DNA of 64,000 bases. Origin: Sphingomonas asaccharolytica NBRC 15499 (GTDB lineage: Bacteria > Pseudomonadota > Alphaproteobacteria > Sphingomonadales > Sphingomonadaceae). The stretch is from contig NZ_BCYU01000007.1 in assembly GCF_001598355.1 (NCBI RefSeq), positions 1 to 64,000 on the forward strand, in the 5' to 3' direction. The number at the start of each line of letters is the position of its first letter. The first letter of the stretch is position 1. Both the position numbers and the translations under genes were made by a program. The notes beneath the pieces were generated by a model. That model was not told the DNA's origin, did not search any database, and worked only from the letters and a program-made list of their open reading frames with translations. Below are positions 17,265 to 51,172 of this stretch, piece by piece.

Positions 17265-18603
<1,339 letters not shown>

Positions 18604-18641
18604 CCCGCTCCCCCGCGCAGATTTCGATCAGGAGACATGCA

Positions 18642-19592
18642 TTGACGCTTCGTATCGCCCTCGCCGGCGCCGGCGCTTTCGGCGAGAAACATTTGGACGG
18701 CCTCGCCAAGATCGACGGGGTCGAGGTGATCTCGCTGGTCGGCCGGCGGCTGGAGTCGACCCAGGCGATCGCCGCCAAATACGGCATCGGCCATGCCACC
18801 ACCGAACTGGCCGAGGCGCTCGACCAGCCGGGGCTCGACGCGGTCATTCTCTGCACGCCGACCCAGATGCATGCCAGCCAGGCGCTGCAATGCCTCGACG
18901 CGGGCAAGCATGTGCAGGTCGAGATTCCGCTGTGCGACACTCTGACCGACGGCGAAGCGGTCCTGCGCAAGCAACAGGAAACCGGCCTGATCGCGATGGT
19001 CGGCCATACGCGGCGGTTCAATCCCTCGCACCAATATATCCACCGCAAGATCGCGGCCGGCGACCTCGCCGTCCAGCAGATGGACGTGCAGACCTATTTC
19101 TTCCGCCGTCAGAACATCAATGCCAAGGGCGAGGCGCGGAGTTGGACCGATCATCTATTGTGGCACCATGCCGCGCACACGGTCGACCTGTTCGCCTATC
19201 AGGCGGGACCGATCGTCAAGGCGAACGCGGTCGAGGGGCCGATCCATCCCGAGCTCGGCATCGCGATGGACATGTCGATCCAGCTCAAGGCCGAGAGCGG
19301 CGCGATCTGCACCTTGTCGCTGAGCTTCAACAATGACGGGCCGCTCGGCACCTTCTTCCGCTATATCTGCGACAACGGCACGTGGATCGCGCGCTACGAT
19401 GATCTCGTCACCGGCAAAGAAGAGCCGGTCGACGTGAGCAAGGTCGATGTGTCGATGAACGGCATCGAGTTGCAGGACCGCGAATTCGTCGCCGCTATCC
19501 GCGAAGGCCGCGAACCCAATGCCAGCGTGGCGCAGGTCATGCCGTGCTACCGCATCCTCGACGCGCTCGAAAAGCAGCTCGCCGGATCGTGA
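18642..19592 (+). CDS. ligC: 4-carboxy-2-hydroxymuconate-6-semialdehyde dehydrogenase LigC
   Basis: LigC (316 aa) oxidises the ring-cleavage product, via its hemiacetal, to 2-pyrone-4,6-dicarboxylate with NADP. It is a GFO/IDH/MocA-family protein with the N-terminal motif ALAGAGAFGEKH, the EIPLCD segment replacing the family EKP, and the central GHTRRFNPSH. It starts with TTG at 18642, with AGGAG eight bases upstream. The nearby ATG at 18638 is out of frame and hits a stop at once. Length equals the known LigC. Its stop overlaps the GTG start of pobA. Confidence 0.95.
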   Translation: MTLRIALAGAGAFGEKHLDGLAKIDGVEVISLVGRRLESTQAIAAKYGIGHATTELAEALDQPGLDAVILCTPTQMHASQALQCLDAGKHVQVEIPLCDTLTDGEAVLRKQQETGLIAMVGHTRRFNPSHQYIHRKIAAGDLAVQQMDVQTYFFRRQNINAKGEARSWTDHLLWHHAAHTVDLFAYQAGPIVKANAVEGPIHPELGIAMDMSIQLKAESGAICTLSLSFNNDGPLGTFFRYICDNGTWIARYDDLVTGKEEPVDVSKVDVSMNGIELQDREFVAAIREGREPNASVAQVMPCYRILDALEKQLAGS

Positions 19593-20767
19593 CCACGCGG
19601 CGAACGCAGGTCGCGATCATCGGTGGGGGACCGGCCGGCCTGTTGCTGGGCCATTTGCTGCGCGCCGAGGGGATCGACTGCCTGATCGTCGAGCGCCAGA
19701 CCCGCGCGCATGTCGAAGGCCGCATCCGCGCGGGCGTGCTGGAGACGCTGACGACCGAGCTGCTGGAGCGGCTCGGCATCGATGCCGGTCTCAAGGCGCA
19801 CGGCATGCGCGAAGAAGGCTTCAACTTGGCCGACGGCGAGCACGTCATCCGTATCGACATCGCGCGACTGACCGGCAAGCACGTCGTCGTCTATGGCCAG
19901 ACCGAACTGACGCGCGACCTGATCGCGGCGGCTCCCGATCGGCAGCTGGAGATCGTGTTCGAGGCAGGCGAGGTCGCGATCCACGATCCCGACAGTGACA
20001 CCCCTTCGATTAGCTATACGAAGGATGGGATCGTCCATCGTGTGGACTGCGCGATCATCGCCGGTTGCGACGGCTTTCACGGACCGTCGCGCAAGGCGAT
20101 TCCGGCCGGCCCGGAGCGCGTCTTCGAACGGGAATATCCGTTCGGCTGGCTCGGCATCCTCGCCGATGTCCCGCCGTGCCATCCCGAGTTGATCTACTCG
20201 AACAGCGAGCGCGGCTTCGCGCTCGCGTCGATGCGCTCGCCGACGCGCAGCCGCTATTACATCCAGGTGCCGTCAAGCGAACGGCTGGGCGATTGGCCGG
20301 AAGACCGGCTGTGGGACGAACTCGAACGGCGCTTCGCCCCGCTTGCCGAGCGTCCGGTGACCCGCGGCCCGGCGCTGGAAATGTCGATCGCGCCGCTCAG
20401 ATCCTATGTCTTCGAGACGATGCGCTACGGCCGCTTGTTCCTGGCCGGCGACGCCGCGCATATCGTTCCGCCGACCGGGGCCAAGGGGTTGAACCTCGCG
20501 GCATCGGATGTCGCCTATCTGTCGGATGCGCTGATCGGCTATTTCAAGCGCGGCGACGAGAGCGGCTTGCGGGACTATGAAACCAGGGCGCTGGCCCGCA
20601 TCTGGAAAGCGGAGCGATTCAGCTGGTCGCTGACCAAGCTGATGCACCGCTTTCCCGAGGACGGCGCGTTCGAGCGCCGGATGCAACAGGCCGAGCTCGA
20701 CTATCTCGCCGGATCGCCGGCGATGCAGACCGCGATCGCCGAAAATTACGTGGGATTGCCGCTTTAA
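19589..20767 (+). CDS. pobA: 4-hydroxybenzoate 3-monooxygenase PobA
   Basis: A flavin monooxygenase (392 aa) that hydroxylates 4-hydroxybenzoate to protocatechuate, feeding LigAB. FAD motifs are GGGPAGLLLGHLL at the N-terminus, the internal GCDGFHGPSR, and GDAAHIVPPTGAKGLN near residue 288. Start and length match the PobA group. The GTG start overlaps the ligC stop (GTGA). This is the last gene of the run, and it meets the convergently transcribed transporter about 60 bp downstream. Confidence 0.95.
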   Translation: MTTRRTQVAIIGGGPAGLLLGHLLRAEGIDCLIVERQTRAHVEGRIRAGVLETLTTELLERLGIDAGLKAHGMREEGFNLADGEHVIRIDIARLTGKHVVVYGQTELTRDLIAAAPDRQLEIVFEAGEVAIHDPDSDTPSISYTKDGIVHRVDCAIIAGCDGFHGPSRKAIPAGPERVFEREYPFGWLGILADVPPCHPELIYSNSERGFALASMRSPTRSRYYIQVPSSERLGDWPEDRLWDELERRFAPLAERPVTRGPALEMSIAPLRSYVFETMRYGRLFLAGDAAHIVPPTGAKGLNLAASDVAYLSDALIGYFKRGDESGLRDYETRALARIWKAERFSWSLTKLMHRFPEDGAFERRMQQAELDYLAGSPAMQTAIAENYVGLPL

Positions 20768-22245: not shown

Positions 22246-23037
22246 CTAGTACCAATAAGCGATCGCGCGCATCTCGATCGACGCTCGCGGCACGGCATCG
22301 GCCGGGCATCGCGGATCGTCGAACGCGACGTGCGGCACCGAATGCGCTCGATCGGGATCGCTGTCATTGGTCTTGAAAATGATCGCCTCGTCGCGCGACA
22401 GGTCCGCGAACCAATGCCAGCGATGCTCCGGAGAATGCGCGACCACCAGGCCCTCGAACGACCACATGATTTCTCCATCCCGATCGAACATCGCGTCCGC
22501 CGGCAACAGGTCGCCGGGCGCGACGCTGCGCGCGTCGCACAAGGCAAGCGGCACATCCTGCGGCGCCGGCGAAATCGCCCGCCAGACATTGTAATGAACG
22601 ACTCGCCGCGGCTCTCCGGCACCGGCGGGCAGGGATCGCGCGCCGAACGCGACCGCGGTCGTGTCGGAGACGTCGACATGCGCGAACCGCGCCGGCCTGG
22701 AATTGTCCAGCGCGCCGGACAATGTCGACCGCTCGGCGAAGCGCAATACACCCGTCCCGGTCACGACGACGTCGTCCGCCCCCGACACGCGCCGGACCAA
22801 GTCGGCTATTTCCTCTGGATGGATACGCCCCACTTCCGCCGCGTCGGCGAAATCGGTCACCATGCTGCGATGCCGCACCAGCGCGAACCCTTCGCCGTCG
22901 AGCGTCGTCGTCAATTCCCGTGCGTTGCGGATCGCCATCGGCCGTGGATCGAGGGCGACCGTGTCGCGGCTCGAATCATTGGCGAAATAGCACATGCGCT
23001 CCCCACTACGGGCGACGTAGTTGATAGCGACCTGCAT
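22246..23037 (-). CDS. CmcJ/NvfI-family putative non-heme iron oxygenase, copy 1
   Basis: A 263-aa protein of the CmcJ/NvfI (hydroxylase/desaturase AsaB-like) family, whose characterised fungal members are Fe(II)/2-oxoglutarate-type enzymes. The features that fit are FAHVDVSDTTA (a possible H-x-D iron pair), NVWRAISPAPQDVPLALCD, and a distal histidine in SPEHRWHWFADLSRDEAIIFKTNDSD. I choose ATG 23037, which has GAGGAGAGAGG upstream, over an in-frame ATG at 23142. A paralogue lies at 37464-38321. No role in lignin catabolism is known to me. The gene diverges from the second TonB receptor. Confidence 0.75.
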   Translation of the reverse strand: MQVAINYVARSGERMCYFANDSSRDTVALDPRPMAIRNARELTTTLDGEGFALVRHRSMVTDFADAAEVGRIHPEEIADLVRRVSGADDVVVTGTGVLRFAERSTLSGALDNSRPARFAHVDVSDTTAVAFGARSLPAGAGEPRRVVHYNVWRAISPAPQDVPLALCDARSVAPGDLLPADAMFDRDGEIMWSFEGLVVAHSPEHRWHWFADLSRDEAIIFKTNDSDPDRAHSVPHVAFDDPRCPADAVPRASIEMRAIAYWY

Positions 23038-23205
23038 CAAGTCCTCTCTCCTCAAACGGCCCCACCATCGATCCGCCGGGGTCACGATCTTTTTGCGCAG
23101 CATGAAGCGCTTAGCGTGAACGCGATGCAGTGCGTACATCATCCGCCCAAAGGCAAAAGAGTGGCGGTTATAGGGGTAGTTTCACTACTCCTTGTCAAGC
23201 GATCA

Positions 23206-25898: not shown

Positions 25899-26675
25899 AT
25901 GGCGGAAACACCGAGCGTCACTCTCTATCATTGGGAACCCAACGCCAATTCGGGCAAGCCCATGTTGACCCTGTTTGAAAAGGGCGTGGCGTTCGACAGC
26001 CATTATCTCGACCTGCTGAACTTCGACCAGCACAAGCCCGATTATCTCGCGATCAACCCGCTCGGCACGATCCCCGCCATGACCCATGGCGACCTGGTGC
26101 TGACCGAATCGACCGCGATCATGGAATATGTCGATGAGGCATTCGCCGGGCCGCGGCTGATGCCCGACTCCGCCGTCGATGCCTGGCGCGTGCGCTGGTG
26201 GATGAAGTTCATGGACCAATGGCTCGCGCCAAGCTTCTCGATGATCGGCTGGAGCGTGTTCGTCGGACCGTCGGTGCGCAGCCGCGATCCGGCGGAACTC
26301 GACGCGGCGATCGAACGCATCCCCCTGCCCGAACGCCGGATCGCCTGGCGCAAGGCGATCAGCGGCGCGTTTTCGGCGGAAGAGATGGCTGAATCGCAAC
26401 GCCGCGTCGCGGCCGGTATCGGCCTGCTGGAACAAGCGCTCGGGCAGCGCGAATGGCTCGCGTCGGACAGCTATAGCCTTGCCGACATCAATGGCTTCAA
26501 CCTGGCGTACGCGCTGCCTTTGTCGCAGCCGCATTTGTCCAATGACGAGCTAACGCCCTATATCATGCGCTGGTTGCGGGCGATCTATGCGCGGCCAGCG
26601 ACCAAATCGTGCTGGGCACTCGGCCGCACCGACATGGCCAGGCGCGTCACGATCCTGGAGGGGGAGCCGGCATGA
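25899..26675 (+). CDS. LigF/BaeA-like beta-etherase glutathione S-transferase (candidate catalytic subunit)
   Basis: A 258-aa GST with the beta-etherase-type N-terminus LYHWEPNANSGKPML. Asn17 falls where BaeA and LigF have the asparagine proposed to activate glutathione. The LTESTAIMEYVDEAF glutathione-binding segment is near residue 67, and the C-terminal helical domain includes ERIPLPERRIAWRKA. Such enzymes cleave beta-aryl ethers after C-alpha oxidation. Its stop overlaps the start of a second divergent GST (ATGA). This arrangement is expected for a heterodimer like BaeAB, described in Novosphingobium aromaticivorans as cutting the beta(R) ether. No LigE homologue is seen in the window, so this pair may fill that role. 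Confidence 0.8.
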   Translation: MAETPSVTLYHWEPNANSGKPMLTLFEKGVAFDSHYLDLLNFDQHKPDYLAINPLGTIPAMTHGDLVLTESTAIMEYVDEAFAGPRLMPDSAVDAWRVRWWMKFMDQWLAPSFSMIGWSVFVGPSVRSRDPAELDAAIERIPLPERRIAWRKAISGAFSAEEMAESQRRVAAGIGLLEQALGQREWLASDSYSLADINGFNLAYALPLSQPHLSNDELTPYIMRWLRAIYARPATKSCWALGRTDMARRVTILEGEPA

Positions 26676-27421
26676 CGATCACCCTGTATCACGGCGAACC
26701 CAACGGCCCCTCGCTGACCGTGTTGGCGGCATTGTTCGAGAAAGGCGCGGACGCCGCGCTCGAGCGCATCGATCTCGCCGCGGGCGCGCGGCACGGCACT
26801 GACGTGCCGCGGGCGATGGAAGTGGATCATTCGATCGAGGGCGAAGGTCCCGTCTTGGTGGTCGACGGCATCCCGATGGCGGACAGCGTGTTCCTCGCCT
26901 GCTATCTCGACGATGTCGGACCCGGCCCGGATTTGCGGCCGAGCGACCCCTATGATCGCTGGCGGATGATGACCTGGTGCCGCTACATCGTCGAACGCGT
27001 AGCGCCCGCCGCGGCTTATCTGGGGGTCGAGGCCAATCCGCCCGCGCACGTGCCGCAGGGCGTAGCGAGTGTCGATCTCGCCGAGCGCTGGAGCGATGCC
27101 GTGGCGGGCAAGATCGACGATGCCAGGCGCGCCGACAGCCGCGACAAGATCGTTCAGGCGGTCGAACGGATCGAGCGCGAATTGAGCGACGGCCGCGACT
27201 GGCTGATCGATGCATTTTCGATCGCCGACCTGGAAAGCTATGCCTGGCTCGCGGGGATGACCGAGCTCGTTCCCGAGGCTTTTGCCGGCCGCCCGCGCAC
27301 CGCCGCCTGGCTGGCGCGGGTCAAAGCCCGGCCCGCTGTGGCGCGCGCGCTCGGCATGGCGACCAGCGCAGCGCCCGAACGCATCTGGGCTCCCGGCCCC
27401 GAGATCAATCGCTGGGGTTGA
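26672..27421 (+). CDS. Divergent LigF-related GST lacking the activating Asn (candidate BaeB-like partner)
   Basis: A 249-aa GST translated from the ATGA overlap with the preceding GST. Its N-terminus is LYHGEPNGPSLTVLAALFEKG. Where the neighbour and LigF have A-N-S, it has G-P-S, so the putative glutathione-activating asparagine is replaced by proline (residue 13). The usual TESTVICEYLED segment is changed to MADSVFLACYLDD. Both changes suggest a structural or substrate-binding subunit. With the tight coupling this supports a BaeA/BaeB-like heterodimer, though I cannot confirm orthology. The next gene, the PQQ dehydrogenase, starts 37 bp downstream. Confidence 0.78.
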   Translation: MTITLYHGEPNGPSLTVLAALFEKGADAALERIDLAAGARHGTDVPRAMEVDHSIEGEGPVLVVDGIPMADSVFLACYLDDVGPGPDLRPSDPYDRWRMMTWCRYIVERVAPAAAYLGVEANPPAHVPQGVASVDLAERWSDAVAGKIDDARRADSRDKIVQAVERIERELSDGRDWLIDAFSIADLESYAWLAGMTELVPEAFAGRPRTAAWLARVKARPAVARALGMATSAAPERIWAPGPEINRWG

Positions 27422-27458: not shown

Positions 27459-29603
27459 ATGGCTTCGGCACTGCAGCGTACCAATCTAATAGCCCTGTTC
27501 GCAGCCAGCATGGCGTTGACCGCTGCCGGCTGCAGCCGCGACGGTGGCAGCGATGGTTTCGTGGCCAAAGGCGGCGTCGACGCGGCGCGTATTACCGCCG
27601 CGGCACCCGACCAATGGCTCTCGACCGGCCGCACCTATGACGAACAACGGTTCAGCCCGTTGAGCGCGATCGACACCGGCGATGTCGGCAATCTCGGACT
27701 TGCCTGGTCCGCCGACCTCGACACCGCGCGCGGCCAGGAGGCGACGCCGTTGTTCGTCGATGGCGCGCTCTACGTTTCGACCGCCTGGAGCATGGTCAAG
27801 GCCTATGACGGGCAAACCGGCAAGCTGCTCTGGTCTTATGACCCCGCGGTGCCGCGCGAGACGTCGGTCAAGACCTGTTGCGACGCGGTCAATCGCGGCG
27901 TGGCGGCATGGGGCGACAAGGTGTTCGTCGGCACGCTCGACGGCCGGCTGGTCGCGCTCGACCGCGCCACCGGCAAACCGGTCTGGTCGGTGGTCACGGT
28001 CGACCAGAGCAAGTCCTACACCATCACCGGCGCGCCGCGCGTCATCGATGGTCTGGTGATCATCGGCAATGGCGGTGCCGAATTCGGCGCGCGCGGTTAT
28101 GTCACCGCCTATGACGCGCAAACCGGCGCGCAGCGCTGGCGGTTCTACACCGTCCCTGCCCAGCCCGGCACCGAGCAGCAACCCGATTACCTCAACAAGG
28201 CCGCGTCGACCTGGTTCGGCGAATGGTGGAAACAGGGCGGCGGCGGCACCGTCTGGGACTCGATGGCCTATGATCCCGCGCTCGACCTGCTCTATATCGG
28301 CGTCGGCAACGGCTCACCCTGGAACCAGGCCTATCGGTCGGAGGGCAAAGGCGACAATCTCTATCTGTCGTCGATCGTCGCGATCCGGCCCAAGACCGGC
28401 GACTATGTCTGGCATTATCAGACGACGCCGGGCGACAGCTGGGACTTCACCGCGACGCAGCACATCATCCTCGCCGACCTCACCATCAACGGACAGAAGC
28501 GCAAGGTGCTGATGCAGGCGCCAAAGAACGGTTTCTTCTACGTGCTCGACCGCACCAACGGTAAGCTCATCTCGGCCAAAAATTTCGTGCCGGTCAATTG
28601 GGCGACCGGGATCGACATGAAGACCGGCCGCCCGATCGAAACGCCCGAGGCGCGCTATTATAAGACCGGCAAACCGTTCATCGGCTCGCCCGGCGCCGGT
28701 GGCGCGCATAGCTGGCAGCCGATGGCGTTCGATCCCAAGACCGGCCTGGTCTTCATTCCGACCAATTTGGCCGCTTTCCCCTATTTCCCGGCCAAGGATT
28801 GGAAGGCCGCCAAGCTGGGCTTCAACGTCGGGGTCGACATGGGCGCCGCGGCGATGCCGGCCAATCCGCAGATCCGCGCCGCGGCGGCGCAGGCGACGAC
28901 CGGCGCGCTGATCGCCTGGGATCCGGTCGCGCAGAAGGAACGCTGGCGCGTATCCTATAAGGGACCCTGGGATGGCGGGCTGCTCGCGTCGGCCGGCGGC
29001 TTGGTCTTCCAGGGCAATGCGACGGGCGAGTTCGCCGCTTATGCCGCCGCGGACGGCCGCAAATTATGGTCCTTCCCGACCCAGACCGGCGTGATCGCCG
29101 CGCCGATCAGCTATTCGATCGGCGGCGAGCAATATGTCGCCGTGCTGGCCGGCTGGGGCGGCATCTGGGCGCTCGCACCAGGCGTGCTGTCGGACAAGAG
29201 CGGGCCGAGCCGCAACATCAGCCGGCTGCTGGTGTTCAAGCTCAACGGATCGGCGACCTTGCCAGCAGCACCGCCGCTCAACCAGACGCCGCTCGATCCT
29301 CCGGCCTCCACCGCACCGGACGCGGTCATCGCCGCCGGCGGCGAACGGTTCGGACGCTATTGCGGCACGTGCCACGGCGACGCGGCGGTTGCCGGCAGCC
29401 TCGTCCCCGACCTCCGCCATAGCGGCGCGCTCAACGACGCCGCGACCTGGCGCCAGATCATTTATGAGGGTGCGCTGAAGGACAATGGCATGGTCAGCTT
29501 CAAGGCAGTGATGACACCCGAGGAGATCGAGACGATCCGTGCCTATGTCATCAAGCGGGCCAATGAGGACAAGGCGCTGGAAAAGGCGACCGGAAAACAG
29601 TGA
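27459..29603 (+). CDS. PQQ- and heme c-dependent alcohol dehydrogenase, lipoprotein
   Basis: A quinohemoprotein alcohol dehydrogenase of 714 aa. The N-terminus has a lipobox (MALTAAGC) ending at Cys24, so it should be lipid-anchored in the periplasm. The eight-bladed PQQ propeller shows repeated LDRATGKPVW/YDAQTGAQRW-type W motifs and the vicinal disulfide TCCDAVNRG near residue 145. The C-terminal cytochrome c domain carries CGTCHG near residue 630. It would oxidise primary or aryl alcohols to aldehydes or acids and pass electrons to the respiratory chain. TGGAGGAAG precedes the ATG. No PQQ biosynthesis gene is in the window. A gamma-hydroxyl of a lignin fragment is a plausible substrate, by context. 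Confidence 0.88.
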   Translation: MASALQRTNLIALFAASMALTAAGCSRDGGSDGFVAKGGVDAARITAAAPDQWLSTGRTYDEQRFSPLSAIDTGDVGNLGLAWSADLDTARGQEATPLFVDGALYVSTAWSMVKAYDGQTGKLLWSYDPAVPRETSVKTCCDAVNRGVAAWGDKVFVGTLDGRLVALDRATGKPVWSVVTVDQSKSYTITGAPRVIDGLVIIGNGGAEFGARGYVTAYDAQTGAQRWRFYTVPAQPGTEQQPDYLNKAASTWFGEWWKQGGGGTVWDSMAYDPALDLLYIGVGNGSPWNQAYRSEGKGDNLYLSSIVAIRPKTGDYVWHYQTTPGDSWDFTATQHIILADLTINGQKRKVLMQAPKNGFFYVLDRTNGKLISAKNFVPVNWATGIDMKTGRPIETPEARYYKTGKPFIGSPGAGGAHSWQPMAFDPKTGLVFIPTNLAAFPYFPAKDWKAAKLGFNVGVDMGAAAMPANPQIRAAAAQATTGALIAWDPVAQKERWRVSYKGPWDGGLLASAGGLVFQGNATGEFAAYAAADGRKLWSFPTQTGVIAAPISYSIGGEQYVAVLAGWGGIWALAPGVLSDKSGPSRNISRLLVFKLNGSATLPAAPPLNQTPLDPPASTAPDAVIAAGGERFGRYCGTCHGDAAVAGSLVPDLRHSGALNDAATWRQIIYEGALKDNGMVSFKAVMTPEEIETIRAYVIKRANEDKALEKATGKQ

Positions 29604-29702: not shown

Positions 29703-30575
29703 ATGCCCATCGATCCCAGCAAGGTCGTCGCGATCGACGTCCACGTCCATGCCGAGGTGTCGTGCCACGACCCCGAGGATCCGGTGATGGCCAAGTTCTT
29801 CGACGCGGCATCGGCCTATTTCAAGGCCGATCGCAAGCGGCCGACCATCCCCGAGACGATCGACTATTACCGCGCGCAGAACATCGCCTTCTGCCTGTTC
29901 ACGGTCGATTGCGAGAGCGGCATCGGTGCCAAGCGGATCAGCAATTACGAAATCGCCGAGCTGGCCGGGCAGCATGCCGACATCGTCATTCCGTTCGCCT
30001 CGATCGATCCGCGCAAGGGCAAGTTCGGCGCCCGCGAGGCGCGCGACCTGGTCGAGAATTGCGGCGTCAAGGGCTTCAAATTCCACGGTATCATGCAGGA
30101 TTGCCACCCGGCCGATCGTGTCGCCTATCCGATCTATGAAGTGATCGCCGAATATGGCTTGCCGGCGATCTTCCACACCGGCCATTCGGGCATGGGCACC
30201 GGGATGCGCGGTGGCGGCGGCGTCCGCCTTAAGTACGGCCAGCCGATGCTGGTCGACGATGTCGCGGTCGATTTCCCCGACATGAAGATCATCCTGGCGC
30301 ATCCGAGCTGGCCATGGACCGACGAGAGCCTGTCGATGGCACTGCACAAGGACAATGTCTTCATCGACCTGAGCGGCTGGTCGCCCAAATATTTCCCCAA
30401 GCAAGTGATCCAATACGCCAACACCCAGCTCAAGCATAAGATGATGTTCGGCTCGGACTGGCCGCTGATTCGTCCCGAGAAATGGATCGATGCAGCCAAG
30501 GAAGCAGGGTTCCGCGACGAGGTGCTGCCGCTGATCATGAAGGACAATGCGGTGCGCGTGCTCGGCCTAGGATGA
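29703..30575 (+). CDS. Amidohydrolase family 2 protein
   Basis: A 290-aa metal-dependent amidohydrolase with DVHVHAE (H14, H16) at the N-terminus, VKGFKFHGIMQDCHP, IFHTGHSG, ILAHPSWPW and the late FGSDWPLI aspartate. It therefore keeps the full metal-site pattern. Members of this branch include decarboxylases and the CouO-type hydrolase of 4-hydroxyphenyl-beta-ketoacyl-CoA in hydroxycinnamate breakdown. I cannot tell which applies. It begins its own unit under a palindromic operator and is followed 56 bp later by a LigF-like GST and folD. Confidence 0.8.
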   Translation: MPIDPSKVVAIDVHVHAEVSCHDPEDPVMAKFFDAASAYFKADRKRPTIPETIDYYRAQNIAFCLFTVDCESGIGAKRISNYEIAELAGQHADIVIPFASIDPRKGKFGAREARDLVENCGVKGFKFHGIMQDCHPADRVAYPIYEVIAEYGLPAIFHTGHSGMGTGMRGGGGVRLKYGQPMLVDDVAVDFPDMKIILAHPSWPWTDESLSMALHKDNVFIDLSGWSPKYFPKQVIQYANTQLKHKMMFGSDWPLIRPEKWIDAAKEAGFRDEVLPLIMKDNAVRVLGLG

Positions 30576-30631: not shown

Positions 30632-31396
30632 ATGGCACTCAAACTCTATCATGCCGAACCTTTGGCCAATTCGCTCAAGTCGATGGCGCCGTTGTTCGAG
30701 AAGCAGCTTCCGTTCGAGAGCATCTACGTCAACCTCCACAAGTTCGAACAGCACGAATCCTGGTTCCTGGCGATCAACCCCGAAGGCCAGGTGCCCGTGC
30801 TCGATCATGACGGAACGATCGTGACGCATTCCACGGTGATCAACGAATATCTCGAAGACGCTTTTCCCGATGCGCCGCCGCTCCGGCCGAACACGCCCGC
30901 GGGCAATGCGCGGATGCGTTATTGGAACAAGTTCGTCGACGAGCATGTGATGAACCACGTCTCCATGCACGGCTGGCATCGTCTCGTCGGTCTGATCGCG
31001 CGCAAGATCGCGGCCGGCGAGTTCGAACAACTGATGGAGCGCATCCCCCTGCCCGACCAGCGCAGGAAATGGATGGCGGCGCGCTCGGGCTTCTCCGAGC
31101 AGCAGTTGGCCGACGCGACCGCGAAGATCGAATATGCGGTGGACAAGGTCGAACGGCAGCTCGATGGCAATCCCTGGCTTGCCGGCGAAAGTTTCACGCT
31201 TGCCGACATCAACTTCTATTCGCATTGCGGCATGATGGTCGAACGGATGTTCCCCGAGATGGAGATCGCCAAACGCGCACCGCGGCTGGTCGAGTGGCGC
31301 GATCGCGTGACGGTGCGTCCAGCGATGCAGCAGGCGCTGACGATGCCGGACCATACCGAACCCGGCTTACGCACCTGGTCGGGACACGCCCGCTGA
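30632..31396 (+). CDS. LigF-like glutathione S-transferase
   Basis: A 254-aa GST of the beta-etherase group. The N-terminus LYHAEPLANSLKSMAPLFEK keeps the Asn-Ser pair (N13, S14). THSTVINEYLEDAFPDAPPLRP and the C-terminal-domain motif MERIPLPDQRRKWMAARSGF match LigF-type proteins. I start at ATG 30632, because sequence upstream reads only as overlap with the amidohydrolase 3' end. Its stop overlaps the folD start (TGATG). It could be a second LigF-type enzyme, or the catalytic partner of a heterodimer with one of the other GSTs. Confidence 0.82.
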   Translation: MALKLYHAEPLANSLKSMAPLFEKQLPFESIYVNLHKFEQHESWFLAINPEGQVPVLDHDGTIVTHSTVINEYLEDAFPDAPPLRPNTPAGNARMRYWNKFVDEHVMNHVSMHGWHRLVGLIARKIAAGEFEQLMERIPLPDQRRKWMAARSGFSEQQLADATAKIEYAVDKVERQLDGNPWLAGESFTLADINFYSHCGMMVERMFPEMEIAKRAPRLVEWRDRVTVRPAMQQALTMPDHTEPGLRTWSGHAR

Positions 31397-32298
31397 TGCT
31401 GGCGGAGATCGTCGACGGACGCGCGCTCGCCCGCAAGGTGGTGGAAGATGTCCGCGCGGGCATGGCCTCGCTCGATCGCGCGCCGGGACTGGCCGTGATC
31501 CTGGCCGGCGACGACCCAGCCAGCCACGTCTATGTCAACGGCAAGGTCAAGCGCGCGCGCGAAATCGGCTTCAACGCCGAGGTCATCCTGCTCCCGGCCG
31601 ACACGACCGAGGATCGCGTGCTCGCCGAGATCGCTGCGCTCAACGCGCGCGACGAGATCGACGGCATCCTCGTCCAATTGCCGTTGCCCGATGGCATCAA
31701 CACCTTGCGGGTGATGGCGGCGGTCGATCCGGCAAAGGACGTCGATGGCCTCCACGCGCTCAATGCCGGCCGGCTGAGCCAGGGATCGGGCGGTCTGATC
31801 CCGTGCACACCGCTCGGCTGCATGAAGATCATCCGTTCGCTCGTGCCCGACCTCACCGGCAGCCACGCCGTCGTGATCGGCAGCTCGAACATCGTCGGCA
31901 AGCCGATGGCGGCGTTGCTGCTCGATGCGCGCGCCACGGTGACCCAGACCCACATCCATACCCGCGACACGCAGTTCATCTGCCGCGGCGCGGACATCTT
32001 GGTCAGCGCGGTGGGCAAGCCCGGGCTGGTGCGCGGCGACTGGATCAAGCCGCGCGCGATCGTGCTCGACGTGGGAACGACCCGCGTCGCCAAGCCCGAA
32101 GGCGGCCACCGCATCGTCGGCGACGTCGCGTTCGAGGAAGCGCTGCACGTGGCGGGGGCGATCACGCCGGTGCCCGGCGGGGTCGGGCCGATGACGATCG
32201 CCTGCCTGATGGAAAACACCCTGACCGCCGCCCGCGCGCGCGCCGAAGCGCGGCGATCCGTCCCGCGATCAGTCGCCGAAAAAGCCTGGCTCGCGTAG
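31396..32298 (+). CDS. folD: Bifunctional methylenetetrahydrofolate dehydrogenase/cyclohydrolase FolD
   Basis: FolD (300 aa) converts 5,10-methylene-THF to 5,10-methenyl- and 10-formyl-THF. Motifs are YVNGKVKRAREIG with the catalytic lysine, VQLPLPDGIN, DVDGLHALNAGRL, the NADP motif VIGSSNIVGKPMAALL, and PVPGGVGPMTIACLMENT. It is coupled to the upstream GST (TGATG). Its neighbour 400 bp downstream is ligM, whose reaction produces methyl-THF, so this copy most likely serves demethylation. Its TAG stop lies inside the left edge of the ~150-bp repeat. Confidence 0.93.
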   Translation: MLAEIVDGRALARKVVEDVRAGMASLDRAPGLAVILAGDDPASHVYVNGKVKRAREIGFNAEVILLPADTTEDRVLAEIAALNARDEIDGILVQLPLPDGINTLRVMAAVDPAKDVDGLHALNAGRLSQGSGGLIPCTPLGCMKIIRSLVPDLTGSHAVVIGSSNIVGKPMAALLLDARATVTQTHIHTRDTQFICRGADILVSAVGKPGLVRGDWIKPRAIVLDVGTTRVAKPEGGHRIVGDVAFEEALHVAGAITPVPGGVGPMTIACLMENTLTAARARAEARRSVPRSVAEKAWLA

Positions 32299-32445: not shown

Positions 32446-34099
<1,654 letters not shown>

Positions 34100-37463: not shown

Positions 37464-38321
37464 TCAGTTGAAATAGGCGATCGCGCGGAATTCGTAACTT
37501 TCGCGCGTCACCGCGTCCGGCCGACTGGTGTCGTGGAACGCCGTATGCGGCGCGCGCCAAGCGCGGTCGTGATCGCTGTCGTGGAACTTGATGAAGATCA
37601 CTTCGTCGGCAGTCATATCGGGGAAGTACCACCAGCGATGCGCCGGATTGTAATGGAAGATCGTGGCCGCCGCCATCTCTTCCTCGCCTTCGATCGGCGC
37701 ATAAAGTGCGTCGCCCTCGGGAATCTCGTCGACATCGACCTTGACGTTGGCGACCGCATCCTCGTCGCCGACGCTGCCTGCTTCGCATAACGCGAGCGGC
37801 CAATCCTGCGGCGGCGGCGAAAAGGTGCGCCATAGGCTGAAGGCGATGAAGCGGGTGAAGCTAGTGCCGGGCGCCGCTTTGTCGAACAACGCCTTCGCGA
37901 TCCGGTGTGCCGTCGCGGTGTTGAAATCGACATGCGCTTCGGCTGCGGGCGGCTGAATCCGCGCGCCGGAAATGACCGGCGAGCGCAATTGCCCGCTCAT
38001 CGGCACGACGAGGTCGCAACCGGTGAGCATGCGCGCGACGTCCGCCACCTCGGCGGGATAATTCGCCACCGCTTTCGGGTCGCGGAAATCGCTCACGCCG
38101 CTGACGTGGCGCGCCAGGCAGAAACCATGTTTGTCGAGCGTGAACGGCTCGGGCGCGAGCCGCGCGTTGCGGATCGTCACCGGATAGGATTGGTAGATTC
38201 CGGTATTCACTTCGCGCCCGGGCGCCCAGAATCGCCGATTGATCTTCGATGTCGGGACGAGATAATCGATCCTGGTCTCGACCGCCGGTGCCGCCGTGCT
38301 GCGATTGATGACTGTCGCCAT
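37464..38321 (-). CDS. CmcJ/NvfI-family putative non-heme iron oxygenase, copy 2
   Basis: A 285-aa paralogue of the gene at 22246-23037. Matching landmarks are AEAHVDFNTATAHRI (H-x-D), SLWRTFSPPPQDWPLALCEAGS, NPAHRWWYFPDMTADEVIFIKFHDSD (distal His) and the C-terminal YEFRAIAYFN. I start at ATG 38321; the open frame upstream runs over the Nu-class GST. It is 25 bp downstream of that GST in the same direction, so the two are probably co-transcribed. The chemistry is unproven. Hydroxylation or desaturation of a lignin fragment is a reasonable hypothesis. Confidence 0.75.
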   Translation of the reverse strand: MATVINRSTAAPAVETRIDYLVPTSKINRRFWAPGREVNTGIYQSYPVTIRNARLAPEPFTLDKHGFCLARHVSGVSDFRDPKAVANYPAEVADVARMLTGCDLVVPMSGQLRSPVISGARIQPPAAEAHVDFNTATAHRIAKALFDKAAPGTSFTRFIAFSLWRTFSPPPQDWPLALCEAGSVGDEDAVANVKVDVDEIPEGDALYAPIEGEEEMAAATIFHYNPAHRWWYFPDMTADEVIFIKFHDSDHDRAWRAPHTAFHDTSRPDAVTRESYEFRAIAYFN

Positions 38322-38346
38322 CGTCGTTTTTCCGCCTTTCCTTTGC

Positions 38347-39015
38347 TTAGGACAGGATGGTCTTGCCCTGGAGGACCGTCTTCTTCTCCATTTCCGTGGC
38401 CTTGGGCGGCTCGGGCACGAGCAGGCCGCGCTGCACGGCCGGACGCACCGCGACGGCGTCGAACCAGCGCTGTAGATGCGGGAGCCCGTCAATCGGCACC
38501 TGTGCCCAATCATGGCCCCTGACCCAGGGAAAGCAGGCGATGTCGGCAATCGAATAATCGCCCGCCAGATAGTCGCGATCGGCCAAGTGCGCGTCCATCA
38601 CGCCGAACAGCCGCCGGCTCTCACGGACATAACGGTCGATCACCTTGGGTAAGCGATCCTCGAAATAGCGGTTGAATACCGTCGCTTGGCCCATCATCGG
38701 CCCCAGCCCCGACATCTGCCACATCACCCATTGGATGACGCGGCTGCGCCCCTTGGTGTCGGTGGGGATGAACCGGCCAAATTTTTCGGCGAGATAGATC
38801 AGGATCGCGCCTGATTCGAAGACCGCGAAATCGCCTTCGTCATGATCGACCAGGGTCGGTATCCGGCCATTTGGATTGAGCGCGACGTACCAATCCTGCT
38901 TCTGGTCGAGGTTGGTGAGCGAGATTACCCTCACCTTGTACGGCACGCCCAGTTCCTCGAGCATGATCGCGGCTTTCCAGCCGTTCGGCGTTTCCGACGT
39001 CAGCAATTCGAGCAT
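38347..39015 (-). CDS. Nu-class glutathione S-transferase (YfcG-like, candidate glutathione lyase)
   Basis: A 222-aa GST beginning [22 protein letters not shown], with the Nu-class Thr9 and Asn11. Further landmarks are [26 protein letters not shown] and the [19 protein letters not shown] segment characteristic of YfcG/Ure2p-like enzymes. In Novosphingobium aromaticivorans a Nu-class GST removes glutathione from both enantiomers of the beta-etherase product, so the same role is likely here, overlapping with LigG. It is divergent from ligF across 229 bp. I prefer ATG 39015 over the in-frame start at 39045. Confidence 0.85.
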
Positions 39016-39244: not shown

Positions 39245-40003
39245 ATGTTGACCCTGTATAGTTTCGGTCCGGCCGCCAACTCGCTCAAGCCGCTGCTCGC
39301 TCTGTACGAAAAGGGCCTGCCGTTCACCCCGCGCTTCATCGACCCGCGGAAGTTCGAGCATCATGAGGAGTGGTTCAAGAAGATCAATCCGCGCGGCCAG
39401 GTGCCGGCGCTCGATCACGATGGCCACATTATCACCGAATCGACGGTGATCTGCGAATATCTGGAAGACGCCTTTCCCGACGCGCCGCGGCTGCGCCCGG
39501 CCGACCCGGTAGCGACCGCGGAGATGCGGGTGTGGACCAAATGGGTCGACGAATATTTCTGCTGGTGCGTATCGACCATCGGCTGGGAGCGGATGATCGG
39601 CCCGATGGCGCGCGCTTTGTCCGATTCCGAGTTCGAGGAGCAACTCGCGCGCATCCCGGTTGCCGAACAGAAGGTCAAATGGCGCAACGCCCGCAACGGC
39701 TTTCCGAAAGAGGTGCTCGACGAGGAGATGCGCAAGATCGGCGTGTCGGTCGACCGGCTGGAGAAAAGGCTGTCGCAGAGTCCCTGGCTGGCCGGCGACG
39801 ACTATACGCTGGCCGACATCTGCAACTTCGCGATCGCCAACGGCATGCAGCATGGCTTCGCGGAAATTGTGAACCGGGAGGCGTCGCCCCATCTGCTCGC
39901 CTGGATCGAGCGGATCAACCAACGCCCGGCGGTGCGCGAAATGTTCGCGCGATCGCAAAGCGAAATGCCGTCGCGTGCGCCGGCGCCTGCGTCAGCTGCC
40001 TGA
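39245..40003 (+). CDS. ligF: Beta-etherase LigF (glutathione S-transferase)
   Basis: LigF (252 aa) cleaves the beta(S)-aryl ether of C-alpha-ketone lignin dimers, forming a glutathione conjugate and a phenol. Near-identical stretches to remembered SYK-6 LigF include LYSFGPAANSLKPLLALYEK, EWFKKINPRGQVPAL, ITESTVICEYLEDAFPD, EMRVWTKWVDEYFCWCVSTI and LADICNFAIANGMQ. The glutathione-activating Asn12 and Ser13 are kept. It is followed 16 bp later by ligG, as in SYK-6, and then by an aldehyde dehydrogenase. All lie in one operon. Confidence 0.95.
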   Translation: MLTLYSFGPAANSLKPLLALYEKGLPFTPRFIDPRKFEHHEEWFKKINPRGQVPALDHDGHIITESTVICEYLEDAFPDAPRLRPADPVATAEMRVWTKWVDEYFCWCVSTIGWERMIGPMARALSDSEFEEQLARIPVAEQKVKWRNARNGFPKEVLDEEMRKIGVSVDRLEKRLSQSPWLAGDDYTLADICNFAIANGMQHGFAEIVNREASPHLLAWIERINQRPAVREMFARSQSEMPSRAPAPASAA

Positions 40004-40019
40004 GGAGATCGAGACCGTC

Positions 40020-40841
40020 ATGAACTGGAACGATGAACCGCCGGGCGGCGCGCTCAGGATGTACCATATTCCGGGCTGCCCGTTTTCCGAGCGCGTGGAG
40101 TTGCTGCTCGACCTCAAGGGGCTCGACGGCATCATGGCCGATCACGAGATCGATATTTCCAAGCCGCGCCCCGACTGGCTGCTGCAAAAGACCCGCGGCA
40201 CCACTGCTTTGCCCGCGCTCGAGCTGGAAAATGGCGAGACGCTCAAGGAAAGCATGGTGATCATGCGCTATTTCGAGGATCGCTTCCCTGAGCGCCTCGT
40301 CGCGCGCCGCGATCCCTATGAGCATGCGGTCGAAGCGATGTTGTGCGCCACCGACGGCCAATTCACCGGCGCGGGCTATCGCATGATCCTCAACCGCGAT
40401 CCCGCCAAACGCGACGAGCATCGCGCCGAGGTCGATGCGCAATATACCCGGCTCGACGACTTTCTGCGTCATTACGCGCCCGACCGCGATTTCCTGTTCG
40501 ACACGTTCGGCTGGGCCGATGTCGCGTTCGCGCCGATGTTCAAGCGGCTGTGGTTCCTCGACTATTACGAGGCATACGAGATCCCGCAGCACCTCACCCG
40601 TGTGCTGCGCTGGCGCGAGGCATGCCAGGCGCACCCGATCGTCCAGCGCCACCACAGCCATCGCGAGCTGATGACGCTCTATTACGATTATTCCCAAGGC
40701 GGCGGGAACGGGCGCATCCCCGACGGGCGCAGCGTCTCCAGCTTCACGCTTGACCCCGCCTGGGACACGCGGCCGATGCCGCCGCGCGACAAATGGGGCA
40801 CGCCCGCGACCGACGTCGAGCTGGGGCTCGTCCTCTCCTGA
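40020..40841 (+). CDS. ligG: Glutathione lyase LigG (omega-like GST)
   Basis: LigG (273 aa) removes glutathione from the etherase product to give the hydroxypropiophenone. The catalytic cysteine is Cys20 in YHIPGCPFSERVELLLDLKG. DISKPRPDWLLQKTRGTTALP, the TGAGYRMILNRD-type segment and YYDYSQGGGNGRIPDGRSVS match SYK-6 LigG. The ATG at 40020 has GAGGAG upstream. A Nu-class GST able to do a similar reaction sits just across the divergent promoter. Confidence 0.94.
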   Translation: MNWNDEPPGGALRMYHIPGCPFSERVELLLDLKGLDGIMADHEIDISKPRPDWLLQKTRGTTALPALELENGETLKESMVIMRYFEDRFPERLVARRDPYEHAVEAMLCATDGQFTGAGYRMILNRDPAKRDEHRAEVDAQYTRLDDFLRHYAPDRDFLFDTFGWADVAFAPMFKRLWFLDYYEAYEIPQHLTRVLRWREACQAHPIVQRHHSHRELMTLYYDYSQGGGNGRIPDGRSVSSFTLDPAWDTRPMPPRDKWGTPATDVELGLVLS

Positions 40842-49774: not shown

Positions 49775-51172
49775 TCACGTCAGTTGGTGAGTGCGCCAGC
49801 TCTCGGCATAGCTGTCGCGCGCGACCTCGGAATAGGGAACCGGCGCCACAATGGCCTTGATCTCGGTCTGGACATGGCGCTCGACCGTCGGCTTGCGCGT
49901 GCCGCCATCGGGCTCGCCCCATAACAAGGTGACCTCGGTGCCGGGCACGGCATGATCGGCCTCGATCATCGCCAAGGTCAGCATCCGCCCTTCATTGGCG
50001 CTATAGCTGATCCAGGTCGAAACACCGACCTGCTTTCCGTCCCTGAGCACCTGGTCATAGGGGTGCATCGAATAGACGGCCGATGGGAATTCCATATATT
50101 TAGCACGATCTCCTCGCGTGAATTGCGAGCTGATCACGCGCATCAAATCCTCATTGTCGAGCGCCAGCGTCACCTTCTTGCGATGCGGCAGGCCCGCCAT
50201 CCGCTCCAGGGCATCACGGCCGATGAAATCGTGGTCGAACTTGACGAACGGGCCGTAACCGAGGTCCCACGGCGTCAGATAATAGTCCTCGATCGACTCG
50301 GGCACAAAGCTGCCCCCGATCGACGCCTTGCCCTCATAGCTGTTGGCCGACAGCCATTCGCGGAAACCGCGCGTCCCCTCGCCGGTATAGGTCGCGGGCA
50401 AGGGCGACGGGATCCAGCCCGATTCGATCGTGTTCGACGAATAGGTGCGGCCGCCGACCAGCGCCAAACCGAATTCCTTGCCGGCGTCGATCAACGCGTT
50501 GCGCACAACGTCGTAATCGGCCCATGGCCCGAACAGTTCGTAGCCCGGCTGCCCCGCCATGCCGTGGCGCAGCGCGCGCACTTCCTTTCCGGCGATCGCT
50601 AGCCGCGTCATGTGAAAGAATTTGAGATCGGGCGGCGTCGCGCCCATCGCCTTTTCCAGCGTTTTCATGGCGTTCGGCCCCTGAAGCTGGAAGCGATAGG
50701 AACGGCGATTTTCCGGGTCGGGGCGGACCGCGGTGCGCTCGTCGCGCGACACGGTGACGTTCCAGTCGCCGGTCGCCGCGTGATATTCGATCCATTCGAT
50801 CGTCGGCGCGCGGCCGACCAGGTTGAACTTGTTCTCATCGAGATAGAACAGGATGACGTCGCCGATGACGTAGCCGTCAGGCGTCACCGGCACGAACTGC
50901 TTGGCGCGATCGGGCACGAAGCCCTTGAAGCTGTTGACGCCAAGATGGTTGAGCATCGCGAATGCATCCGGCCCCTCGACCGCGAGGTCGACCATGTGGA
51001 ACGACTGGTTGAACAATACACAGGTTTTCGACCAGGCCTGCTGTTCGCTGCGCCAGTTCGAATATTCGGCCGGCACGCCCGGATAGACATTGGGTCCGCT
51101 TTGCTGGTTGCGCAGCAATTCGACGATATCGCCGCTGGCATCCAGCAACTGTTGCAGGGTCTGTTCGGTCAT
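49775..51172 (-). CDS. desA: Tetrahydrofolate-dependent syringate O-demethylase DesA
   Basis: A LigM paralogue of 465 aa with the GcvT-like fold. RNQQSGPNVYPGVPAEYSNWR, VLFNQSFHMVDLAVEGPDAFA, LFYLDENKFNLVGRAP, RHGMAGQPGYELFGPWADY and KYMEFPSAVYSMHPYDQV follow remembered SYK-6 DesA rather than LigM. DesA moves a methyl from syringate to THF, giving 3-O-methylgallate. The start follows GAAGGAGCGTGAG, which lies in the 3' end of the upstream hydrolase gene. Only one base separates the two, so they are coupled. Confidence 0.9.
   Translation of the reverse strand: MTEQTLQQLLDASGDIVELLRNQQSGPNVYPGVPAEYSNWRSEQQAWSKTCVLFNQSFHMVDLAVEGPDAFAMLNHLGVNSFKGFVPDRAKQFVPVTPDGYVIGDVILFYLDENKFNLVGRAPTIEWIEYHAATGDWNVTVSRDERTAVRPDPENRRSYRFQLQGPNAMKTLEKAMGATPPDLKFFHMTRLAIAGKEVRALRHGMAGQPGYELFGPWADYDVVRNALIDAGKEFGLALVGGRTYSSNTIESGWIPSPLPATYTGEGTRGFREWLSANSYEGKASIGGSFVPESIEDYYLTPWDLGYGPFVKFDHDFIGRDALERMAGLPHRKKVTLALDNEDLMRVISSQFTRGDRAKYMEFPSAVYSMHPYDQVLRDGKQVGVSTWISYSANEGRMLTLAMIEADHAVPGTEVTLLWGEPDGGTRKPTVERHVQTEIKAIVAPVPYSEVARDSYAESWRTHQLT

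Follow-up and report, generated by a model that had tools for sequence, protein, structure and literature searches.

A BaeAB-like GST pair in Sphingomonas asaccharolytica and the near-fixed C-terminal tail of its B subunit

The two adjacent GST genes described here, GST1 and GST2 of S. asaccharolytica NBRC 15499, very probably encode an orthologue of BaeAB, the glutathione-dependent β-aryl-ether-cleaving heterodimer. Judged from sequence and by analogy with characterised pairs, we put the probability of this reading at roughly 90%. The genes lie in the window, that is, the whole 64,000-nucleotide stretch of contig NZ_BCYU01000007.1 that was analysed, and the features discussed are collected in Table 1. 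An earlier note on this DNA had proposed a BaeAB-like heterodimer; as a statement of orthology this is borne out by the identity to SxeBaeAB, the tree, the presence of the Asn in A and not in B, the neighbouring genes and the lack of a LigE. BaeAB is already a known enzyme, and what is of value to follow up here is the tail of the B subunit and a second family of pairs.

Table 1. Coordinates of the gene pair, its sites and its neighbours in the window.
Feature	Position	Strand	Remarks
Protocatechuate 4,5-dioxygenase beta-subunit-like protein, Gfo/Idh-type dehydrogenase (read as LigC-like) and 4-hydroxybenzoate 3-monooxygenase	17710-20767	+	
CmcJ/NvfI-family oxidoreductase	22246-23142	-	267 bits; in lignin-catabolism region
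GST1, baeA-like, predicted catalytic subunit	25899-26675	+	258 aa; Asn17-Ser18
Asn17 codon of GST1	25947-25949	+	AAT; equivalent of BaeA Asn14 / LigF Asn13
GGAGGGGGAG, Shine-Dalgarno-like site for GST2	26657-26666	+	by eye; within GST1 3' end
GST2, baeB-like, predicted partner subunit	26672-27421	+	249 aa; Pro13-Ser14
ATGA stop/start overlap, GST1/GST2	26672-26675	+	
Pro13 codon of GST2	26708-26710	+	CCC; replaces the glutathione-activating Asn
GPEINRWG, C-terminal octapeptide of GST2	27395-27418	+	
PQQ-dependent dehydrogenase	27459-29603	+	C-terminal cytochrome domain; homologue near BaeAB in 46/55 loci
Amidohydro_2 protein	29703-30575	+	homologue near BaeAB in 44/55 loci
Third GST, LigF2/DesD-like	30632-31396	+	43% to SYK-6 LigF; homologue near BaeAB in 25/55 loci
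FolD gene	31396-32298		
LigM, vanillate/3-O-methylgallate demethylase	32696-34099	+	889 bits
CmcJ/NvfI-family oxidoreductase	37464-38549	-	253 bits; in lignin-catabolism region
Nu-class-like GST, candidate glutathione lyase	38347-39015	-	PDB search, run on 38347-39012, one residue short
LigF, expected β(S)-etherase	39245-40003	+	65% to SYK-6 LigF
LigG-like GST	40020-40841	+	PDB 4g10/4yap/4yav, presumably LigG, E 7e-119
DesA, syringate demethylase	49775-51172	-	895 bits

The gene pair and its orthology to BaeAB

The genes overlap in an ATGA, as the earlier note had said. The closest PDB entry to both subunits is LigF (4xt0; E 4e-41 for GST1 and 2e-13 for GST2), and its ANS aligns with the ANS of GST1, within the motif E-P-N-A-N17-S18-G-K-P, in agreement with the proposed match of Asn17 to the LigF asparagine. 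These residues are numbered Asn13/Ser14 in LigF and Asn14/Ser15 in BaeA (Kontur et al., 2018; PMC6369299). GST2 reads E-P-N-G-P13-S14-L, so that Pro does occupy the Asn position, and Ser14 is retained in all 74 aligned B subunits. The earlier note also described a remodelled ESTVICEYLED segment. That sequence belongs to the window LigF, and its counterpart in GST2 is ADSVFLACYLDD. The change is smaller than the description suggests: the acidic residue of the D/E-S motif is D or E in 74/74 B subunits and the Ser is present in 70/74 (alignment including the window). The suggestion that the overlap ensures equal synthesis was overstated: an ATGA is no guarantee of it, GST2 has its own Shine-Dalgarno-like GGAGGGGGAG, and the spacing varies among 75 pairs (4-nt overlap 35, 1-nt overlap 24, one base apart 12, other 4; the counts are approximate, start codons having been picked automatically). 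According to Kontur et al. (PMC6369299), the baeA and baeB genes overlap in all species but one.

Locus L041 of Sphingobium xenophagum NBRC 107872 has two neighbouring genes whose products match GST1 at 86.1% identity (458 bits) and GST2 at 67.5% (327 bits). In their methods, Kontur et al. (PMC6369299) state that SxeBaeAB came from this strain, and it is through the strain name, not a protein accession, that the pair was equated with SxeBaeAB. Both values lie above the >50% identity and >200 bits by which Kontur et al. define the relationship, with SxeBaeAB and not the N. aromaticivorans pair as the reference. The same paper reports that SxeBaeAB was purified as a two-polypeptide enzyme that cleaved β(R)-MPHPV and not β(S)-MPHPV, and gives a kcat/Km for BaeAB on β(R)-MPHPV of about 150 per mM per s. 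The nearest relative is Sphingomonas mali NBRC 15500, at 98% (A) and 94% (B), among the best 80 of 140 relatives.

The pairwise identities are close to those published. GST1 and GST2 are 25.4% identical to each other; GST1 is 35.6% identical to SYK-6 LigF and 36.5% to the window LigF, and the corresponding values for GST2 are 27.6% and 28.2%. The published values are about 24% for BaeA and BaeB, with BaeA below 36% and BaeB below 30% to LigF homologues (PMC6369299). A phylogeny had been proposed in the earlier note as a check, and a maximum-likelihood tree of 57 proteins, calculated without LigE, places GST1 in the BaeA group (99/95), GST2 in the BaeB group (100/95) and LigF outside both. Neither GST1 nor GST2 matches the LigE-type model NF042997 at E 0.001.

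Named loci were obtained by running an alignment of GST1 orthologues against titled genome records and keeping the best 80 of 140 relatives, which were picked with the peptides YHWEPNA and NSGKPML[AT]. The presence of Asn-Ser in 80/80 A subunits is partly by construction, since these peptides include the motif region; Asn-Ser is also found in 13 family orthologues of GST1 that were selected without them. A B-type partner follows A in 79/80 named loci, and the contig of the last (L061) ends there. Automatic recovery of B succeeded in 75 of the 80, giving 73 full-length subunits, one cut by the contig end (L039) and one apparently frameshifted (L048). In three further loci (L086, an in-frame read-through, L082 and L095) B was found by tblastn, and in L099 it is truncated. 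Among the 73 full-length B subunits, 58 have Pro at the Asn position and 15 have Ala; Pro thus predominates in this set, as against the Ala reported for N. aromaticivorans BaeB.

A separate family sample comprised 149 genomes including that of the window, of which 26 matched GST1 at E 1e-20. In all 12 other genomes whose best match to GST1 is 62-81%, a homologue of GST2 (47-59%) lies directly downstream, so the pairing is no accident; in a thirteenth (L022, 59% to GST1) the partner is more distant, at 36%. BaeA orthologues followed by distant B subunits were also seen among the named loci, at L082:10773-11555 and L095:10757-11536; these partners are 36-38% identical to GST2, have Phe at the Asn position and fall outside the 73 counted. 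When a BaeB profile was run against 385 Alphaproteobacteria genomes, with at most six candidates scored per genome, the window held the sole true BaeB (388 bits), the other matches reaching at most 118 bits and ending before the tail.

It might be argued that GST1 and GST2 form two independent homodimers that happen to share an operon, with GST2 a drifting duplicate. GST2 does evolve faster, with a mean pairwise identity of 0.59 as compared with 0.74 for A (74 pairs), in line with a published remark that BaeA is more conserved than BaeB (PMC6369299). We consider this explanation highly improbable, given the near-constant B-type partner downstream of A, the 35 of 249 GST2 positions, the last eight included, that are invariant over 56 sequences below 85% identity, and the three orthologous BaeAB pairs that were purified as two-polypeptide enzymes (PMC6369299). 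A and B distances correlate (r 0.73, 74 aligned pairs).

The C-terminal tail of the B subunit and a second family of pairs

GST2 ends in WAPGPEINRWG. The octapeptide GPEINRWG is exact in 73/73 full-length named B subunits and is also present in L048 and L086, making 75 of the 77 named homologues with a readable tail; the tail formed no part of the selection of these sequences. The deviating tails are GPEHSRWG (L095) and GAEHSRWG (L082), both from the distant B subunits described above. The tail is the most conserved 8-mer of B, with an entropy of 0 (56 sequences below 85% identity, window included), as compared with an entropy of 2.0 for the variable C-terminus of GST1. Because the residues are fixed and their codons vary synonymously among B genes, selection acts on the tail peptide; a cause at the level of DNA is ruled out by the same synonymous variation.

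The tail was then sought more widely, using a DNA pattern for GPExxRWG plus a stop codon (the pattern also admits TGG). Across the family it gave 36 sites in 29/298 genomes, with none for the reversed-pattern control among the matches listed. Across the phylum it was found in 3/398 genomes, one of them outside the family, with one for the control; the site in that one genome closes a frame of 51 aa and was rejected as spurious. Thirty of the 36 family sites were fetched: two lack a stop codon, and 28 are the C-terminal ends of GST2 homologues (BLAST E ≤2.5e-17 for the best match of each). For those 28, the upstream A subunit was recognised by NANSG in 20 and lay among the GST1 matches in 5, the locus being too short in the remaining 3. 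Sorted by tail, the 36 sites comprise GPEINRWG (21), GPE[PLAF]GRWG (10), three others (GPEISRWG, GPEVSRWG and GPEHARWG) and two false.

The GPExGRWG group, which we call type II pairs, occurs in 10/298 family genomes. The upstream A subunit reads (YT or HT)WEPNANSGKPL in 9/9 fetched and is 44% identical to GST1 (two computed), and the type II B subunit is 29-38% identical to GST2. Nine type II pairs were included in the tree described above. Their A subunits form one group and their B subunits another (100/100 each), and the type II A group is joined to BaeA (99/98). The two B groups are not cleanly joined, as a long-branched Nu-class row is placed next to them, so the tree does not settle on one origin for type I and type II B subunits. 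Of four 19-kb type II neighbourhoods (L186-L189), three have a large frame close to the pair that would fit a TonB receptor in size, together with frames that look SDR-like by eye; Pfam typing of the flanks identified a TonB receptor and an SDR in L189, and MFS transporters in L187 and L189.

The strings GPEINRWG and EPNANSGKP were absent from the open literature searched. The word 'tail' does not occur in the main text of Kontur et al. (PMC6369299), and an unremarked display in supplementary Fig. S4 of that paper is possible. Among the matches listed in the sphingomonad and etherase literature, as represented by titles and abstract openings, none describes a second heterodimeric GST pair.

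The AlphaFold model of GST2 has a pLDDT of 91.6, with residues 244-249 below 50, and among the structures listed it is nearest to LigF (Z 25.5, 222 aligned, rmsd 2.1). For the pair, the single A-B frame of the orthologue L086 was folded, being used only as a single chain; random sets of alignment rows were tried until the placement of rows was clean (alignment A6), and alignments A3 and A4, in which all or part of the B rows fell on the A half, were rejected. The model has two GST units, a pLDDT of 89.3 and a pTM of 0.90, values that suggest a well-defined placement of the two predicted halves relative to each other. LigF 4xt0 is the structure nearest to the A half (Z 30.7), and the structure matches of the whole model cover residues 1-251 only, which is the A half. 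The models give no position for the tail, as its confidence is below 50 in GST2 alone and the mean pLDDT over the final seven residues of the A-B chain is 53.

It is worth adding that in L086 (4562-6175) baeA and baeB form one 537-aa open reading frame. We considered this as proof of a complex through gene fusion and rejected it: the junction, set against those of relatives, points to a TATATAT run that has grown by 2 nt (TA), and the sequence comes from a metagenome assembly.

Taking the tail and the type II pairs together, we tentatively propose, at somewhat less than even odds, that sphingomonads have a broader class of GST heterodimers to which BaeAB belongs as one branch, each with a catalytic NANSGKP subunit and an Asn-less helper that carries a near-fixed GPExxRWG tail. 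The tail might then be the working part of the helper, becoming ordered on binding of substrate or glutathione, completing the active site of the partner and setting its stereoselectivity. It offers a cheap and specific target for mutation, and a nearly unique tag by which to find further candidate heterodimeric GSTs.

Neighbouring genes and stereochemical coverage

β-O-4 ethers are the commonest linkage in lignin, and the earlier note had argued that, with LigF present and no LigE homologue in sight, the GST1/GST2 pair would complete stereochemical coverage. The window does encode a LigF (Table 1). The absence of LigE extends beyond the window to the whole assembly, which is rated 100% complete: the best score on NF042997 is 45.7 bits against a cut-off of 440, and the window LigF scores only 31.8. 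The cut-off is passed in 20/149 family genomes, with matches in 0/14 control genomes, and one family protein above it matches the PDB β-etherase 4yam/4yan, which we take to be LigE, with E 3e-117. With LigF present and LigE absent, the proposal of full coverage is a reasonable one, and BaeAB is apparently the sole β(R)-etherase of known type predicted in this genome.

A GST1 orthologue of 58% identity or more is present in 14 genomes (window included), of which 9 pass the NF042997 cut-off and 5 do not (G000, G025, G075, G111 and G117, the last 87% complete), so that 4 of the 13 other family genomes with such a BaeA orthologue also seem to rely on BaeAB alone. Kontur et al. (PMC6369299) cite a further strain, Sphingobium sp. 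YG1, that has BaeAB but no predicted LigE. Searches for LigE only would overlook genomes that use BaeAB for the β(R) half.

Neighbours were counted in the 55 named loci with full flanks, within 10 kb of BaeAB, a homologue being taken as a match that spans half of the query at 40% identity or more (42% for the GST). The PQQ dehydrogenase and the Amidohydro_2 protein are the most constant of those tested, and a TonB receptor homologue is found in 32/55 loci. To our knowledge, neither the PQQ dehydrogenase nor the amidohydrolase has an assigned or settled role in β-ether cleavage. In N. aromaticivorans, Saro_2870, a putative PQQ-dependent ALDH, was assayed, and the ALDH Saro_2869 oxidised a β-5 intermediate (PMC11323797); both are close to BaeB by locus-tag number. 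NaLigF2 (Saro_2865) lies in the same N. aromaticivorans cluster as BaeAB (PMC6369299). Taken together, these genes make the cluster look like a broader lignin-dimer locus. Saro_2865, the likely counterpart of the third GST in Table 1, is called NaLigF2 by Kontur et al. (PMC6369299) and DesD elsewhere (PMC12997858), two names that imply differing functions.

These neighbours bear on a rival reading, in which the GST heterodimer has the BaeAB fold but acts on a different substrate, for instance some other lignin dimer or else a hydrophobic aromatic ether, and cleaves MPHPV incidentally. The constancy of two neighbours with no settled β-ether role would fit this, as would the proximity of Saro_2870 and Saro_2869 to BaeB and the existence of the related type II pairs (A 44%, B 29-38%). 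Against it, an enzyme 86%/67% identical to GST1/GST2 has been tested and cleaves β(R)-MPHPV, and the pair is surrounded by genes for LigF, a LigG-like GST, LigM and the protocatechuate pathway. We regard another principal substrate as improbable.

Mechanism and comparison with known systems

On the BaeAB reading, GST1 would bind glutathione and a ketone dimer of the MPHPV type, and its Asn17 would activate the thiol, which would attack the β carbon and release the phenol. GST2, in which the Asn is replaced by Pro, could not activate glutathione in the same way; it would supply the second half of the dimer and let BaeA accept the β(R) substrate, to which its conserved tail probably contributes. 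LigF would take the β(S) substrate, and the LigG-like GST, the Nu-class GST or both would strip glutathione from the products. B keeps most other residues of the glutathione site (Ser14 and the D/E-S Ser), so it may have a residual or different activity.

The heterodimer, the β(R) specificity and the role of the BaeA Asn were established by others on close orthologues (PMC6369299), and it is by analogy with these that we infer heterodimerisation, activity and β(R) stereospecificity in S. asaccharolytica; Kontur et al. caution in the same paper that sequence alone does not predict the stereospecificity of β-etherases. A catalytically poor partner somehow renders BaeA active and β(R)-specific, and the authors of that paper had no crystal structure in 2018.

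The system most like the present one is BaeAB itself (N. aromaticivorans Saro_2873/Saro_2872 and the homologues of S. xenophagum and PP1Y; Kontur et al., 2018). It shares the gene order, the overlap, Asn-Ser in A, the loss of Asn and retention of Ser in B, the phylogenetic placement and a LigF2-type GST nearby. It differs in that N. aromaticivorans BaeB is reported to have Ala at the Asn position (PMC6369299) where GST2 has Pro, and in that N. aromaticivorans has a LigE and the S. asaccharolytica genome does not. The type II pairs (L023, L024, L148-L150, L156, L157, L159-L161 and L164) have in common with it NANSG in A, a tail of the same kind at the end of B (GPExGRWG) and adjacency, whereas their B subunits have His at the Asn position in those read. 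LigF, the homodimeric β(S)-etherase of SYK-6 (4xt0), resembles both subunits as their closest PDB entry and shares Asn-Ser with GST1, but it is only 36% identical to GST1 and 28% to GST2 and belongs to a separate clade, and the true LigF of this genome is encoded apart from the pair. Finally, the homodimeric β(R)-etherases LigE/LigP (NF042997, 4yam/4yan) have the same stereochemical role as that expected of GST1/GST2, but belong to a distant GST group.
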